NCBI RefSeq assembly: GCF_002796605.1
Contig: NZ_CP024923.1
Coordinates: forward strand, 744,001-808,000
Length of the DNA stretch: 64,000 bases
Source of the DNA: Sphingomonas psychrotolerans
GTDB lineage: Bacteria; Pseudomonadota; Alphaproteobacteria; Sphingomonadales; Sphingomonadaceae
Direction: 5' to 3'
This document shows, piece by piece, positions 1-5,052 of the stretch (within the stretch, counting starts at the first letter, position 1; the number at the start of each line of letters is the position of its first letter). Position numbers and translations under genes: made by a program. The notes under the pieces are model-generated. The model saw only the letters and a list, made by a program, of their open reading frames with translations, had not been told where the DNA came from and did not search any database.

Positions 1-412
1 CGATGAGCCGCTGCGCATTCTCGCGATCGGCGGTGTTGACGACGGTAAAATCGCCGCGCCACGATGCCCTTGCCTCGACCTGGTCGGCGAGCGGATCCGG
101 GTGCGTGTCGGTCGGTACCAGGAGGTAGCGCGCTATTGGCAGCAGCGCATCGTCGGTCTGTGGAGGGGCTTCGCGCGGCTCCAGCCCTAGCCCGCGCCAG
201 CTCGCCGCCAGCCGCAACCCCTCGGCAGCCGCGCCCAGGCTGACGCCAGCGTCGTTGCAGCGCGGATCGCCGACCGTCAAGCGCGCGCGCACATCCTCGA
301 ACAAGTCGATCGTGTCGTCGCCCACCAGCCGCCAGCGCGCTGGCTGGACGTTGTGGACGCTCGGCGCGAGCATTGCCTCGGCGACGAGCAGGTGCAGCGT
401 ATCCGCGCTCAT
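1..412 (-). CDS. Nitroreductase-family (Acg-like) protein, partial at window edge
   Basis: The frame opens with ATG at 412 and is still open at base 1, so only about 137 N-terminal residues are visible. Residues 16-24 read APSVHNVQP, the N-terminal FMN-contact motif of nitroreductases of the Acg/Rv3131 type (typically APSxHNxQPW). Members bind FMN and act as oxidoreductases, and some seem to store rather than turn over the flavin; the substrate here is unknown. The start codon overlaps the stop of the upstream GNAT gene by 4 bases (ATGA, 409-412), so it is the fifth gene of a translationally coupled operon with an E1-like enzyme. E1-like proteins and nitroreductase domains are also paired in mycobacterial Rv1355c-type proteins and in azole-peptide synthetases (E1-like plus SagB-like oxidase). 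The family call is good; the function is inference. Confidence 0.75.
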   Translation of the reverse strand, partial: MSADTLHLLVAEAMLAPSVHNVQPARWRLVGDDTIDLFEDVRARLTVGDPRCNDAGVSLGAAAEGLRLAASWRGLGLEPREAPPQTDDALLPIARYLLVPTDTHPDPLADQVEARASWRGDFTVVNTADRENAQRLI

Positions 413-1506
413 GCGATCGCTTTCCGGAACAGATGCAGCCGGTGCAGCGGCGTGGCGCCCAACCGCTCCATCTGGCGCAGGCTCGCGGCGTTGCCGTCGG
501 CGATCCAGGTGATGCCGAGCTTCGTATAGCCCGCGACCCGCAGCGCCGCGACGGTGCGCGCGAGCATCGCACCCATCAAGCCTTGCCCGTGCATGTCGCT
601 CACTACCGAATAGAAGATGATCACCGCCCGTCGCCGGCGCAGGCGATAGCGCAGGTAGTGGAAAGGCGTGGCAAGCCCGATGCGCGATCGCGTCGCGGCG
701 AGGAAGCCATTGAGATCGGGGATGCAGATGATCGCACCGACCGGCCGATCGCCGTGCATCAGCACCGACGATAGGCGAGGATCGAGGATCGACATCATCT
801 CCCCCGCCTGGAAGCGGAATTCATCGGCGGTCAGCGGCACGAACATCGGATTGCCCGCAAAGCCGTCGTTGAGGACGAGCCGCGCTTCCTCCATCCGCGC
901 GGCGAAGCTGCCGCGCGCAATGGGAGCGAAGCTGAACCCCGCCGCGGCATCGATCGGGCGGGCGGCGAAATCGCCTTCCGCGGCCAAGTCCAGCTCGAAG
1001 GTCTGCATGGGAAAGAAGCGCGCAAATCCATTCGCTTCGAGCAGGCGGGGCACATGCGGCGGATTGACGATCATGTCGGTATAGGCCCGCGCGCCGAAGC
1101 CTCCCGTCATCACGCCCGCCTGCTGCATCGCAGTCAGGTTGAAATTGCCGACCAGCTCGTTCTGGCCGTGCGTGCGGGTGAAATCGGTGGCGGCATCGAG
1201 CAGGATCCGCGCTGCCTCCGTGTCATCGGCGCAGTCGAAGAAGCCGAACTGCGCGCGTTCGGTGCCGTGACGGGCGTTCGACTGGCGATGGACGTGGGCG
1301 ATGACGCGCCCGATCGGCCGGCCAGCCCGGTGCGCGGTCCAGAAGGCGAAGGGGGTGCCCGTCGTCCACAACGGGTTCCTGACCGGATCGAGCATCCGGA
1401 CGATGTCGGTGCGCAGGGGCGAGACATAGCCGTCGGCTTGGTCATAGGCATTGAACGGTGCGTCGAAGAACGCAGCGACGTCGCCCTGGCGGAGTTCGAC
1501 CGTCAT
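409..1506 (-). CDS. GNAT-family acyltransferase, YghO-like
   Basis: A 365-residue cytoplasmic protein. The N-terminal part has the YghO-like signature: a PLRxD stretch, LDPVRNPLW, then GRPIGRVIAHVHRQSN and FGFFDC, followed by GNFNLT and NPPHVPRLLEANGF. A second GNAT-like half contains HGQGLMGAMLARTV, fitting the acyl-CoA pyrophosphate loop (Q/RxxGxG/A). Such proteins are presumed to transfer an acyl group from acyl-CoA or acyl-ACP to an amine, but no substrate is established. ATG at 1506 overlaps the stop of the upstream membrane-protein gene by 4 bases, and its own stop overlaps the nitroreductase start, so it lies inside a five-gene coupled operon. Length is normal for the family and the frame is intact. 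Confidence 0.8.
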   Translation of the reverse strand: MTVELRQGDVAAFFDAPFNAYDQADGYVSPLRTDIVRMLDPVRNPLWTTGTPFAFWTAHRAGRPIGRVIAHVHRQSNARHGTERAQFGFFDCADDTEAARILLDAATDFTRTHGQNELVGNFNLTAMQQAGVMTGGFGARAYTDMIVNPPHVPRLLEANGFARFFPMQTFELDLAAEGDFAARPIDAAAGFSFAPIARGSFAARMEEARLVLNDGFAGNPMFVPLTADEFRFQAGEMMSILDPRLSSVLMHGDRPVGAIICIPDLNGFLAATRSRIGLATPFHYLRYRLRRRRAVIIFYSVVSDMHGQGLMGAMLARTVAALRVAGYTKLGITWIADGNAASLRQMERLGATPLHRLHLFRKAIA

Positions 1507-2645
1507 GCCGATCGCTCAATCAATCGCGCAACGAGCACAAGCTCGTCATCGAGCGCGGGTGCGGTCAGGCTGCCCGCAGCTACGGCCAGCAGTTGCGGCG
1601 GCGTGCGCGACAGCCGGACGAGATGTGTCGCGGCATAGGCGTCGAGCACCTCGCGCGCGGCATCGCGCGCCTCGGAGTCGTCGCTCGACGTGCTGACCAC
1701 CGGATGGTCGAGCAGCCGCGCGATGCTGGCCTCGGGATAGGCGCGCAACTCGGCCGGACCGAGCACTCGTCCCGAGGCGAGAAGCGGATGGGCCGCGATC
1801 AGCGCGTGGGGATCATGAGCCGGTGCGCGTGCGAGCGCGGCGACAAGACCTGTCGCGTCGTCATCGCCCGCCTTCGATCGCGCGACGATAAGTAGGAGGC
1901 ACGCCAGCGCGGTGCCCCCGGCAGCAACAAGGATCACGGCGTCGCCCGGCAGGGTAGGCTGCGCAGCCAGCGCGATGATGACACTCACGCCGCCGGCCCC
2001 TGCCGCGACGAGCAGATCGGCGACCAGGCGCCACGGCGAGCCGTCCCCTGCCGCTAGGCGTGCGGTTGCCAGGACGAGCAGCAGCGCAGCGAACGCGCCG
2101 CCGCGAATCGGCATGTCGGGCAGAACCGCGGCAAAGTCGGTGGCGGCGAGCGGGATCGTCAGCAGCAGCGCGAGCAGGAAGGTGTCGGCGGTCCGGCGTT
2201 CGCCACGCCCGAGCTCGCCGCGGCTGCGCGCGAGCAGCGCCACCATCAGCGCGAGCATCGTCAGCTGATAGAGCGCGAGCGCCAACGCCGCGGCAGCGCT
2301 CCACACGATGCCCAGCGTTACCGCTAGCGCCGAAAAGCCGACAGCCCCTCCCAACGCCACCATCTTGACCAGGGGAGGCGCATGGCGGCGGCGCAGTTCC
2401 TCGACCAGCCGGAGCGCCGCCATCGGCAACCAGGCGGCGACCAGCATCAGCGCGATCACAAGTGGCGTGGCCGTCGCCAGCGGTGCGATCAGGCGCAGCG
2501 CGAGCAGCGCCGCGACCAGGGTATAAACCGTGCGCAGCCGCGCCGCGACCGGCGACCGATCCGCGATCGCCGCTGCTCCGCGCCGGGCCACGAGCACGGC
2601 CAGCAGCGCGATCGCAGAGACGATGGCGGCGACCGACAGGATCAC
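1503..2645 (-). CDS. Polytopic membrane protein of the ThiF/nitroreductase operon
   Basis: A 380-residue protein starting with GTG at 2645. This start is supported by a GTGA overlap with the ThiF stop (2642-2645). About nine hydrophobic segments span roughly residues 1-255, rich in Ala, Leu and Val. They are followed by a soluble C-terminal tail of about 120 residues that contains a charged SSDDSEARDAAREVLDAY stretch. I do not recognise a named family. In context it could anchor the E1-like and acyltransferase enzymes at the inner membrane, or move their substrate or product. No signal peptide distinct from the first transmembrane segment and no transport-ATPase motif are visible. Confidence 0.6.
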   Translation of the reverse strand: MILSVAAIVSAIALLAVLVARRGAAAIADRSPVAARLRTVYTLVAALLALRLIAPLATATPLVIALMLVAAWLPMAALRLVEELRRRHAPPLVKMVALGGAVGFSALAVTLGIVWSAAAALALALYQLTMLALMVALLARSRGELGRGERRTADTFLLALLLTIPLAATDFAAVLPDMPIRGGAFAALLLVLATARLAAGDGSPWRLVADLLVAAGAGGVSVIIALAAQPTLPGDAVILVAAGGTALACLLLIVARSKAGDDDATGLVAALARAPAHDPHALIAAHPLLASGRVLGPAELRAYPEASIARLLDHPVVSTSSDDSEARDAAREVLDAYAATHLVRLSRTPPQLLAVAAGSLTAPALDDELVLVARLIERSA

Positions 2646-3514
2646 CCCATCATCCGCGTCATCAGGCGCCGCACCGCAAAGCCGCGCAGCGCGGCGACGG
2701 GCGCGGAGCGCGGTCGCTCGATCGCGACGCTATGCGGATTGAAGAAATAGCCGCGGTGGTCCGTACCGCCGCGCCGGCCCAGCAGGACGCGCACGGCTTC
2801 CTCGGCCATCATCGTTCCGGCCATCGTCACCATCGTCGAGAAGGAGAAGCGCGATCGCTTGCCGGCGGCGACTTCGGCCGCGACATCGAGATCGACATAG
2901 CGGTGCGACGAACTGTGCGTGAGCACATAGGCGATCTCGCGCTTAAGGCAGTCGGCGCGCATCTCTGGCGTCACGCTGGTCCAGTCGCTTCCCACCGTGG
3001 GATACCCCAGCCGCTCCTCTAGCCGCGGCGCTTCAGGCCCGACGACGGTGACCGAGGGCAGGGGGGAGGCATAGGCGTCGATGATCGTGCGACCGTGGAT
3101 CCTAGCGCGACGATAGAGATGCACGCCCGCGGCGGCATCGTCCATGCCGTTCACGGCGACATGGCTGGCGGCAAGCAGTCGATCGAGCTCTTCGGTCCAT
3201 TCGCGGCCGAGCACTTCGATCTCGACTTCTGGATTGATCGTCAAGGCAGTGTCCCGGGCCACCTCGGCCTTAGGCTTGCCCACCGCCGGCAGCGTCGAGA
3301 AGAGTTGGCGGTTGAGGTTCGACACTTCGAACGTATCGATATCGGCGATTATGAAGCGGCCCACGCCGGCGCGTACGAGCGCCATGAACGCCGCCCCGCC
3401 CATTCCGCCGACACCGGGAATGAAGACCTGGCTGTCGCGCAGCCGCACCTGTTCCGTCGCGGTCACGAAGCCGCGATTGCGCGTCGTCATCTCGGCATAG
3501 TCGAAAACGGTCAT
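2642..3514 (-). CDS. ThiF/E1-like adenylyltransferase
   Basis: A 290-residue E1-superfamily protein. I place the start at ATG 3514, not the upstream in-frame ATG at 3559, because 3514 makes a 4-base ATGA overlap with the previous gene, as at every other junction of this operon. The Rossmann nucleotide loop is GVGGMGG (residues 34-40). DIDTFEVSNLNRQ (58-70) supplies the acidic and NRQ residues that adenylate a C-terminal carboxylate in ThiF/MoeB/E1 proteins. The paired CxxC zinc motifs of MoeB/ThiF are absent, and the whole protein has one cysteine (C189), which could be a thioester residue. No ubiquitin-like or ThiS-like partner is seen nearby. It probably activates a carboxylate, possibly of a peptide or of a product of the neighbouring acyltransferases. 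Confidence 0.85.
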   Translation of the reverse strand: MTVFDYAEMTTRNRGFVTATEQVRLRDSQVFIPGVGGMGGAAFMALVRAGVGRFIIADIDTFEVSNLNRQLFSTLPAVGKPKAEVARDTALTINPEVEIEVLGREWTEELDRLLAASHVAVNGMDDAAAGVHLYRRARIHGRTIIDAYASPLPSVTVVGPEAPRLEERLGYPTVGSDWTSVTPEMRADCLKREIAYVLTHSSSHRYVDLDVAAEVAAGKRSRFSFSTMVTMAGTMMAEEAVRVLLGRRGGTDHRGYFFNPHSVAIERPRSAPVAALRGFAVRRLMTRMMG

Positions 3515-4458
3515 CGGGCGGGCCTCAATCTTCCCAGGGGGCGCTCGGCGTCGAGCCATTGGAGAAGGGGGGCGATCACGGCTTGCACGCCGATCATCGA
3601 TCCTTGTGCCGCGAGCTGCGGCATCGCGCTGCGTGGCACGCTACGCGCGAGGAAGCGTCGCGCGGTGCCGATATCGAGGCGGCCGATCTGCAGCAGGTCG
3701 TCACCGCGCTCATAATCGAGCGAGGTGGCGCAGAAGTGATTGTAGCGCGCGTCGCGATGCTTTGCCGCTACCGCGAAGCTCTTCTTCAGATTGTCCGATC
3801 CACCGGTATAGGCGTTGGTGATCAGCTGGGCGTCCGGATCAAAGCCGGCATCGTCGCCGACCCCGAAGGCGTCGCGCTCTCCGGCCATTATCTGATGCGC
3901 GAGATGGCGATGCGCAAAGCTTGCCACCGTACCGGCCTGACCCGGATAGACGTCATCGAACATCTCGGCGACCATCCCGACCACCGCCGGCACCTGCGTC
4001 ACGCTGCTGATCCACAGCGGCCGAAGTCCACCGCGCACGAACAAGGCGAAGCACGTCAATCCATAGAGAATCCACGACAGCCCGCCGCCGCGCTCGTCGG
4101 GATCGACCATCACTAGGCCCAGATGGAGTACATTGCTCGCCTGGCCGCCGCGCGTCACCGGCAACAAGGGCATGGCGTTGAAGGCTATCGGTTTGCCATC
4201 GCTGACACGACGCACCAGCGTGATGACGCTGCGGCCCCACGCCGCCTCGTCCCGTGCGAAGAGCCCGTAATCCAGCTGCCGGCCAGCCAGACATGCCGCC
4301 ACCACGCCACGACAAGCCGAGATGAGTTCGTCCAGCGCCTGGCGGTCGAGCCACAACGCGGGTCGCTCAATGATCTCGACTATATGGGTTCGATCAGGGC
4401 GAAACCGCAGCCGCAGGAAATCGCCGCGCAGCGCCGCAATGATCGTCGATGGCCCCAC
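3511..4458 (-). CDS. GNAT-like N-acyltransferase, first gene of ThiF operon
   Basis: A 315-residue protein and the first gene of the coupled five-gene operon; its stop overlaps the ThiF start. The segment VMVDPDERGGGLSWILYG (middle of the protein) resembles the GNAT acyl-CoA-binding loop (V-x-P-x-x-R-G-x-G). The family is only distantly recognisable, and it may be nearer to long-chain N-acyl amino acid synthase-type enzymes than to small acetyltransferases. C-terminal residues GSMIGVQAVIAPLLQWLDAE look helical and amphipathic. The upstream sequence (4459-4500) should hold the operon promoter, but I see no convincing sigma-70 boxes. The call as an acyltransferase is moderately supported; the substrate is unknown. 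Confidence 0.6.
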   Translation of the reverse strand: MGPSTIIAALRGDFLRLRFRPDRTHIVEIIERPALWLDRQALDELISACRGVVAACLAGRQLDYGLFARDEAAWGRSVITLVRRVSDGKPIAFNAMPLLPVTRGGQASNVLHLGLVMVDPDERGGGLSWILYGLTCFALFVRGGLRPLWISSVTQVPAVVGMVAEMFDDVYPGQAGTVASFAHRHLAHQIMAGERDAFGVGDDAGFDPDAQLITNAYTGGSDNLKKSFAVAAKHRDARYNHFCATSLDYERGDDLLQIGRLDIGTARRFLARSVPRSAMPQLAAQGSMIGVQAVIAPLLQWLDAERPLGRLRPAR

Positions 4459-4692
4459 GCAGCTCTCCCCGTGCCGTATCTATGATTGGAATCCTAAATA
4501 TTGGTAGGCTCGATTGCCATGAATGTCCGCATTCTCACACGTCCGGTTTGAAACCGCGCTGCTGAAGGGTAACTCACCGTTCCGATCGAGCGGCAGCTAT
4601 GCGCCCATAATCGGTCATCGAGCGGCATGGCGACAGCTCCCAAAAAACTGCCGTTAGCTCACGCTTTGATTATCGGCGAGGACCCACCACGC

Positions 4693-4890
4693 GGACGGAC
4701 GGGCCACACAGTCGCGACGGGCTTGCAGCGGCTCGGAGTCAGGCTCGAGGTGACGGAAGCTGTGTAAACCACGTCTCGGGATCGCGAGCGGGGATCGTCG
4801 GCGTTTACCAACGGCACAACTACTTCGATGAGAAGAGGGCGGCCCTCGAGGCGTGGGCGCACGAGGTGGAGCGGCTCGGAGCAGGGCACC
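4693..4890 (+). pseudogene. Relic of tyrosine recombinase (phage-type integrase) C-terminus
   Basis: The plus strand reads RTGHTVATGLQRLGVRLEV then TEAV. After a one-base deletion at about 4764-4766 it reads NHVSGSRAGIVGVYQRHN and YFDEKRAALEAWAHEVERL. This is the end of a phage/ICE tyrosine integrase: the R-x-GHTxAT segment lies just before, and the VYQRHNY tyrosine (the recombination nucleophile) lies near the end. Everything upstream of the RTGHT segment is missing, so this is a truncated and frameshifted relic. It marks an old integration event between the ThiF operon and the ABC operon. The rest of 4459-5052 shows no gene. Confidence 0.8.
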
Positions 4891-5052
4891 CGCTGAAGCC
4901 CGGCTCTCGACCTGTGAGGGCTCGGCGCAGCTCGGACACCATGTCGGCTTTGGGAAAGGCGAGGGGCAGGGGTGCACATAGCTCAACGGCGGCAGCCGCA
5001 CCTGGCGGCCGACGAACAAGGTGACCGGGCGACCCTCCCCACAGATGGCACG

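Follow-up and report, generated by a model that had tools for sequence, protein, structure and literature searches.

At the left edge of the window (the whole 64,000-nucleotide stretch of Sphingomonas psychrotolerans DNA analysed here) lie five minus-strand genes, A to E (Table 1). Their four successive junctions overlap by 4 bases each, reading ATGA (A/B), GTGA (B/C), ATGA (C/D) and ATGA (D/E), and we confirmed both the positions and the overlap sequences given in the preliminary description of this DNA. The complete gene E encodes 327 aa and ends outside the window, at L003:10429. The leftward extension proposed in that description revealed gene X, coding for a cytochrome, and an alpha/beta hydrolase gene, and no YcaO or ubiquitin-like protein was present among the eight proteins scanned for families (A to E, X, Y and a recombinase). 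X is convergent with E and overlaps its stop codon by 4 bases. The five genes stand as they had been placed, but they share the unit with one more conserved gene, X, outside the window.

Table 1 Features of the gene cluster; positions are those of the window unless L003 is given.
Feature	Position	Strand	Basis
Gene A, 315 aa	3511..4458	(-)	ORF
Gene B, 290 aa, ThiF/E1-like adenylyltransferase	2642..3514	(-)	PF00899, profile match, tree
Gene C, 380-aa membrane protein	1503..2645	(-)	predicted helices, AlphaFold
Gene D, 365-aa GNAT, YghO/bacterial ceramide synthase superfamily	409..1506	(-)	profile, Acetyltransf_1
Gene E, 5' part, nitroreductase-superfamily flavin oxidase	1..412	(-)	PF00881; Acg structure 2ymv
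Gene X, RoxA-like di-heme cytochrome, outside the window	L003:8798-10432	+	PF21419, geometry
Stretch without called gene upstream of A, presumed promoter	4459..5052	.	

Conservation of the gene set

Genes at the compared loci were called from profile matches or annotated records, heuristic ORF picks being often antisense or merged. Across 29 loci, the 4-base overlap was kept at 88 of 108 scorable junctions (A/B 26/29, B/C 20/29, C/D 19/24, D/E 20/23 and, as a direct junction, C/E 3/3), so that chance does not explain the overlaps and the proposed operon with coupled junctions is supported. Three junctions were left unscored (C/D of L026, on opposite strands; C/D of L024, far apart; D/E of L048, with a split E), and L039, the same contig as L019, was excluded from the count. 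In every locus with both partners (25 of the 29), X and the operon are arranged tail to tail, and X is about as constant as the five operon genes. Three otherwise complete clusters (L020, L021 and L027) lack D and one (L026) lacks E. On two plasmids, one from Shinella and one from Ensifer, a gene for an acyl-ACP phospholipid O-acyltransferase occupies the place of X.

The genes also diverge in step, with distance correlations of 0.89–0.97 in 19 of the 22 six-gene loci (29 loci in all; L017, L029 and L048 were omitted for their split A, B and E, respectively), a parallelism that partly reflects species kinship. The cluster stays intact in bacteria that are only distantly related, including strains of Sphingomonas and Rhizobiaceae, and the separation of the genes in other genomes that the preliminary description had named as evidence against its proposal was not what we observed. 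The host copy is presumed to sit on a tRNA-Glu island of ~116 kb.

The ThiF protein and the flavin oxidase

B matched PF00899 with 118.6 bits, and its scores against MoeB and ThiF models reached at most 79 bits, every one under its cut-off. It aligned over the whole length with the ThiF set of FeeM-type loci (hhalign 99.9%, E 1e-32), which we used as proxies for the biochemically proven TyzB, OxzB and TrzS; 10 of the 11 reference loci hold a FeeM-type synthase. In the phylogenetic tree, a branch with 100/100 support joined B to ThiF proteins of which seven out of eight came from FeeM-type synthase loci; the same branch included a Rhodococcus ThiF and was separate from the MoeB-like proteins, and the group of B sequences itself had a support of 79/85. 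Judged by sequence, B groups with the putative ThiF cyclase clade of N-acyl amino acid synthase loci. A classical sulphur-carrier E1 of the MoeB/ThiF kind was rejected on the sub-cut-off scores and the separate branch. D125 of B aligned with D130 of MoeB and presumably corresponds to Asp217 in the ThiF part of TrzS, a residue chosen from a ThiF-ATP structure and needed for cyclisation according to the accessible text of that study (PMC12856293). Eleven of 12 B homologues share C189, which makes a thioester step possible, and no Cys is invariant among the 12; since no other column contains three or more Cys, a CxxC pair is absent.

E matched PF00881 over the cut-off and the Acg structure 2ymv (E 8.7e-15). 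Its best model was that of Acg/Rv3131 (NF047509; 123 bits, under the cut-off of 199), the Rv1355c-type model scoring far lower (40 bits). Against the oxidases of three FeeM-type loci, hhalign gave 97%, with single-profile matches in two of the three. In the available portions of the source papers, Acg is the nearest solved homologue of the TrzS oxidase (PMC12856293) and the published pathway oxidases belong to FDO-A, the other main subgroup (PMC10404671). Judging by these matches, E belongs with the flavin oxidases that partner such ThiF proteins, and a flavin-dependent oxidase of the nitroreductase superfamily stands beside B. The ThiF/nitroreductase pair fits the idea of carboxylate activation, and such a pair is the core of the published acyl-oxazolone and N-acyl dehydrotyrosine pathways.

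The additional partners

The AlphaFold model of A (pLDDT 74.7) exhibited a GNAT fold at residues 19–277. The best Pfam/NCBIfam E-value among 16 A homologues was 0.014, and neither FeeM (PF21926) nor Autoind_synth appeared among the seven families listed for them at E-values up to 1; as a positive control, PF21926 was matched by all nine FeeM-type synthases scanned. As A had no detectable sequence relation with the FeeM-type synthase set (hhalign 0.3%), we assign the first pathway step from fold and position only. A is best described as a GNAT-fold protein without named family and a presumed acyltransferase.

D was borne out as a YghO-like GNAT: its profile scored 160.5 bits against YghO of E. 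coli BL21 over nearly the whole YghO length and 136.3 bits against the host's own YghO-type paralogue (22% identity to D), and Acetyltransf_1 was over the cut-off. It had no match with the FeeM-type synthase set either (hhalign 0.2%), so that, by sequence comparison, neither A nor D appears to be an adjacent FeeM/NasY-type N-acyl amino acid synthase. The YghO family is described as the presumptive ceramide N-acyltransferase in the accessible text of PMC9386255. The yghO gene of BL21 lies inside the spt cluster. No spt gene is found beside D, the host's four spt-like sites (one at C1:161033) all lying far from the cluster; given this distance and the separate YghO-type gene of the host, we claim D as superfamily kin only.

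C has nine predicted long helices, as the preliminary description had it, followed by a C-terminal domain (AlphaFold pLDDT 85.4). The window protein matched no Pfam/NCBIfam family at E-values up to 1, its model resembled only a GPCR-like helical bundle, and its membrane part and C-terminal domain gave at most 0.1% in hhalign against the N-terminus of PrsK-type sensor kinases (six PrsK sequences). X matched the RoxA-like family PF21419 (72.1 bits, cut-off 26.7) and RoxA itself, carries the APY..NGSVP motif and two CxxCH motifs invariant in 11 homologues, and is presumably exported. We rejected the rubber oxygenases RoxA, RoxB and RoxC as its identity (scores of 53, 59 and 81 bits; cut-offs 1000, 900 and 900, respectively); the score with NF040606 di-heme cytochrome c peroxidases was also under the curated cut-off. 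The profiles of A, C, D and X had no match in the 11 FeeM-type reference loci.

A candidate pathway and its relatives

On balance, an acyl-oxazolone-type route to an N-acyl amino acid lipid seems somewhat likely for the cluster; all of its reactions, the amino acid used, the sequence of steps and what C, D and X contribute are inferred. A would attach a fatty acyl group to the amino acid, B would use ATP to adenylate the carboxylate of the N-acyl amino acid, leading to oxazolone ring closure, and E would desaturate the alpha-beta bond with O2. D might acylate an additional amine or intermediate, C might carry the product or anchor it at the membrane, and X might oxidise it in the periplasm. 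The O-acyltransferase that replaces X in Shinella and Ensifer fits a lipid product. The carboxylate-activation, acylation and redox pathway proposed earlier had been called undescribed, but this does not hold for the type of core reaction, since clusters of an acyltransferase, a ThiF protein and a flavin oxidase are known, as far as the accessible reports go, from pathways to acyl-oxazolones and N-acyl dehydrotyrosines (PMC10404671, PMC12856293, PMC12479983). By sequence, then, the type of core reaction appears known, with A, C, D and X as candidate additional partners of the B/E pair. The cluster thus resembles a more elaborate relative of recently reported pathways in which N-acyl amino acids become cyclic or unsaturated lipids. 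Of the lipid- or peptide-modifying product once envisaged, the lipid is the likelier of the two. Against the oxazolone route speak the lack of FeeM relation of A, the different subgroup of E, the loci missing D or E, the four genomes described below in which A and C occur with neither D nor a cluster-type B, the share of species kinship in the parallel divergence and the possible thioester step at C189.

B might instead activate a carboxylate for coupling, an amine or hydroxyl opening the acyl-adenylate or oxazolone to give an amide or ester lipid with halves from A and D. The presence in one operon of two acyltransferase-like proteins with undetectable mutual profile similarity, the ceramide synthase kinship of D and the O-acyltransferase of the Shinella/Ensifer variant would suit this possibility, which we nevertheless consider rather doubtful, as no dedicated coupling enzyme is recognisable and three clusters lack D. 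Somewhat more speculative, and improbable as it stands, is an as yet unknown two-part membrane lipid built by the six genes, with an azlactone half and a ceramide-synthase-like half, placed by a receptor-like nine-helix C and finished outside by X as an exported two-heme oxygenase. On that reading, the pathway would be spread over several bacterial lineages, on an island and large plasmids. If true, it would mean a new lipid class and a periplasmic oxidative step beyond what is described in the accessible text of the oxazolone papers.

It is also conceivable, if quite unlikely, that A and C are the core of the system, as a membrane-stress or lipid-remodelling module, with B, D, E and X as add-ons modifying its product. 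Four of the eight phylum-sample genomes having an A match carry A and C without cluster-type B and without D, and hence these two may act without cyclisation; three of those four loci (L040-L042) adjoin TetR, PspA and YiaA genes, which flank the Shinella cluster too. However, PspA and YiaA had no match at the remaining compared loci, TetR was matched weakly at L010 and L012, and the whole set diverges in step where B is present. Azole-peptide synthetases also combine ThiF and nitroreductase domains, and B shares its E1 core with the PaaA and MccB structures, which, along with the Cys kept in most B homologues, might suggest a classical E1 or peptide-modifying ThiF (MccB/PaaA/TOMM type) with E as azoline dehydrogenase. 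We regard this as very unlikely given the grouping of B with ThiF proteins of synthase loci, its lack of an invariant Cys or CxxC pair, and the absence of YcaO and ubiquitin-like proteins from the eight scanned. Moreover, no conserved precursor-peptide ORF was seen in 4459..5052 upon comparison with the upstream DNA of 10 relatives: blastn found no match, and the 22 six-frame segments of at least 15 aa gave a single weak one (L015, E 0.005).

According to the accessible part of PMC12856293, no physiological role is known for the published oxazolones, and its authors consider this a major open question. A cluster that is larger, strongly conserved and equipped with membrane and presumably exported components offers a handle on that role outside pathogens. 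It unites an oxazolone-type ThiF, a ceramide-synthase-like GNAT and a RoxA-like cytochrome; we found no published cluster combining a ThiF, a YghO-like GNAT and a di-heme cytochrome in a search mostly without subscription journals and bioRxiv.

Among single members, X shares the two CxxCH and the APY..NGSVP motif with RoxA-type di-heme rubber oxygenases, with scores below the curated cut-offs for these and for NF040606, and D is a full-length homologue of bacterial ceramide synthase/Aca (YghO, CC_1154; accessible text of PMC9386255) but a separate, divergent member away from spt. Among whole systems, tyzA-tyzB-tyzC (acyl-tyrazolone, Rv2336-Rv2338c) has an FDO-A23 oxidase, whereas E scores best with the Acg/Rv3131 model; the accessible part of its description mentions neither a membrane protein nor a GNAT of the YghO kind nor a di-heme cytochrome (PMC10404671). 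The nasY-ThiF-nitroreductase clusters of thalassotalic acid, kyonggic acid and stieleriacine producers keep synthase, ThiF and nitroreductase together, with overlaps or gaps of <10 bp in two producers (PMC12479983), but comparison of A with the FeeM-type synthases fetched detected no relation. In trzA-trzS (acyl-tryptazolone; PMC12856293) and oxzA-oxzB, ThiF and oxidase are fused, whereas they are separate genes in S. psychrotolerans, and the other four gene families do not figure in the accessible descriptions; yet these systems hold, as here, an acyltransferase-adjacent pair of ThiF and flavin oxidase, and the essential adenylation-motif Asp of trzA-trzS has its presumed counterpart in D125 of B.

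Gene organisation and genomic setting

The 5.04-Mb genome of Sphingomonas psychrotolerans consists of two contigs, and genes A to E are encoded leftward on its minus strand, located where the preliminary description had placed them, with 4-base overlaps at all four junctions. This confirmed layout could also be extended: E, truncated by the window edge, reaches a full length of 327 aa once the left flank (L003) is added, and is followed by a convergent gene, X, encoding a 544-aa RoxA-like di-heme cytochrome, the stop codons of E and X sharing 4 bases. Before X comes Y, a gene for an alpha/beta hydrolase, which lies near the cluster in six of the 22 loci retrieved by scanning genome contigs with B.

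The whole window (G000:C1:744001-808000), cluster included, lies inside a presumed integrative element that is bracketed by an exact 47-base repeat of the tRNA-Glu 3' end and runs from the left copy to the intact tRNA-Glu(CTC) gene. A tyrosine recombinase gene is found just inside the left repeat and genes of the TrbL, VirB8 and TrbI families near the right end. The repeat occurs a third time farther left, which points to another element on that side.

Coordinates of the cluster genes (positions in the window) and of other features
Feature	Coordinates	Strand	Remarks
A, GNAT-fold protein	3511..4458	-	
B, ThiF/E1-like protein	2642..3514	-	
C, nine-helix membrane protein	1503..2645	-	
D, YghO-like GNAT	409..1506	-	
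E, nitroreductase-superfamily flavin oxidase	starts 412	-	runs off window
Presumed integrative element	G000:C1:738749-854529		~116 kb; 47-base repeats, recombinase, TrbL/VirB8/TrbI genes
47-base repeat, left copy	G000:C1:738749		
Intact tRNA-Glu(CTC) gene	G000:C1:854455		
47-base repeat, third copy	G000:C1:685982		
Repeated end of E	L015:12074-12447		
154-aa ORF resembling A	L049:6069-6533 (G000:C1:2609158-2609331)		

Protein families and predicted folds

B belongs to the ThiF family (118.6 bits) and E to the nitroreductase superfamily (35.8 bits against a cut-off of 23.5), the latter also matching the Acg structure (E-value 8.7e-15). X matched the RoxA-like di-heme cytochromes (72.1 bits, cut-off 26.7) and the RoxA structure (E-value 7.8e-23); given its two CxxCH motifs, invariant in 11 homologues, and an N-terminal hydrophobic stretch (judged by eye), it is presumably exported. 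The window's A and C matched no named family above cut-off. The best family match was at an E-value of 0.014 for 16 homologues of A and, for 11 homologues of C, at 4e-4 (7TMR-DISM_7TM, in a single homologue). A model built from the 16 sequences (pLDDT 74.7) predicts a GNAT fold for A over residues 19-277, and that of C, from the 11 sequences (pLDDT 85.4), nine long helices together with an alpha/beta region at the C terminus.

D, a GNAT family member, matched YghO of E. coli BL21 with 160.5 bits and a paralogue in its own host with 136.3 bits. The YghO family has been described as presumptive dihydroceramide N-acyltransferases (PMC9386255), and in BL21 yghO shares a cluster with spt. We set aside the possibility that D is the ceramide synthase of the host, which possesses both the YghO paralogue (38% identity to YghO) and, elsewhere in the genome, an spt-like gene (48% identity); D is thus a second, divergent family member.

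Conservation of the cluster and of the A-C pair

The cluster is rare. Only four of 298 genomes of the family contained B (E-value up to 1e-30) and eight of 398 of the phylum contained A (up to 1e-5), the host counted in both cases, and A also occurred on plasmids of Ensifer, Shinella and Rhizobium, in 10 of 72,556 records. The 22 loci of the contig scan belonged to Sphingomonadales, Caulobacterales/Hyphomonadaceae, other alphaproteobacteria, one Halomonas MAG, two Gemmatimonadota MAGs and one ANGP1 MAG. A and B were detected by tblastn in all 22, and a six-profile search found A, B and C together in every one, with A split in two in L017 and B likewise in L029. Profile matches were missing among these loci for D in L020, L021 and L027, for E in L026 and L028 (a short contig), and for X in L024 (an 8.2-kb contig) and L028 (4.7 kb). 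In L024 A is preceded by D and E, and in L026 D lies on the opposite strand together with X.

Together with the host's own locus, two plasmid loci and four loci taken from the genome samples, the 22 scan loci made up a set of 29, in which 88 of 108 scored junctions had the 4-base overlap. E and X converge, with their stops tail to tail, in each of the 25 loci holding both, from a 14-base overlap to a 24-base gap in 24 and with a 416-base gap in L015. Downstream of E in L015, its last 37 codons match twice more, with ends 196 and 177 bases apart. On the Shinella and Ensifer plasmids (one record each) an acyl-ACP phospholipid O-acyltransferase gene occupies the expected place of X, and the Rhizobium WL3 plasmid carries X itself. 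Pairwise distances of the six genes correlated at 0.89-0.97 across the 19 loci with all six intact, and none of 2000 permutations reached such values for the four gene pairs permuted; this parallel divergence is partly due to species kinship.

Among the eight phylum-sample genomes with an A match, three (G000, G655 and G660) held the whole cluster and four (G492, G406, G508 and G394; loci L040, L041, L042 and L044) held A and C without cluster-type B or D, so that A and C are linked more basically than the other cluster genes. The eighth, G605, had a partial A interrupted by stops. In these last five genomes the B-profile matches were MoeB-like proteins, D was not detected, and X-profile matches were partial (65-78 bits) or none. 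The pair adjoins TetR, PspA and YiaA genes in G492, G406 and G508, homologues of which also lie alongside the Shinella cluster. Elsewhere in the host genome, a 154-aa ORF resembles the A profile at residues 21-78 (E-value 5e-13) over part of its length before continuing into unlike sequence; it is probably what is left of a second A gene.

A possible oxazolone-type core and its published relatives

For kinship comparisons we used 11 loci with PRK14851-like ThiF proteins. Ten contained a FeeM-type synthase, adjoining the ThiF gene in six and some kb off in four; none was found in L080. All nine aligned synthases matched PF21926. B aligned over its full length with eight of the ThiF proteins, and in a 33-row tree a branch with 100/100 support separated B, the comparison-locus proteins and a Rhodococcus plasmid ThiF from MoeB-like rows; the B rows grouped with 79/85 support, and the long Rhodococcus branch was of unsure placement. 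On that 28-kb plasmid (Rhodococcus sp. NJ-530, L093) an IS256 transposase gene separates the GNAT N-acyltransferase and ThiF genes. E is related to the three oxidases taken from the comparison loci (hhalign 97%), its profile matching two. At E-values up to 1e-3, the B profile was found in all 11 loci, the E profile in two, and those of A, C, D and X in none; no similarity was seen between A or D and the synthases. By eye only, genes of nucleotide-sugar, patatin-like and TPR-like type were noted close to ThiF in some of the loci L079-L089. All seven genomes tested from this set encode the PEP-CTERM sensor kinase PrsK, and the comparison-locus ThiF pathway may therefore be linked to the exosortase system in these bacteria.

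The analysis establishes the gene set, its order and overlaps, the parallel divergence, the protein families and the predicted fold of A. As to the reactions, we lean slightly towards an oxazolone-type core for the cluster, in which A would acylate an amino acid, B would activate and cyclise the product and E would carry out a desaturation. With less confidence, D might acylate a further amine, C handle the product at the membrane and X oxidise it outside.

The preliminary description had proposed an undescribed pathway of carboxylate activation, acylation and redox chemistry. A coupled, conserved pathway is upheld, but the core chemistry has published relatives, namely the acyltransferase-ThiF-flavin oxidase clusters tyzABC (PMC10404671), trzAS (PMC12856293) and nasY (PMC12479983). 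TyzA N-acylates L-Tyr or L-Phe, the ThiF protein TyzB performs an ATP-using cyclisation, and the flavin oxidase TyzC an O2-dependent desaturation, yielding acyl-oxazolones (PMC10404671). In trzAS the same steps act on Trp, through a fused ThiF-oxidase protein with an essential Asp217 in its ThiF part (PMC12856293). The nasY clusters lead to N-acyl dehydrotyrosines, and in two producers their genes overlap or lie <10 bp apart (PMC12479983).
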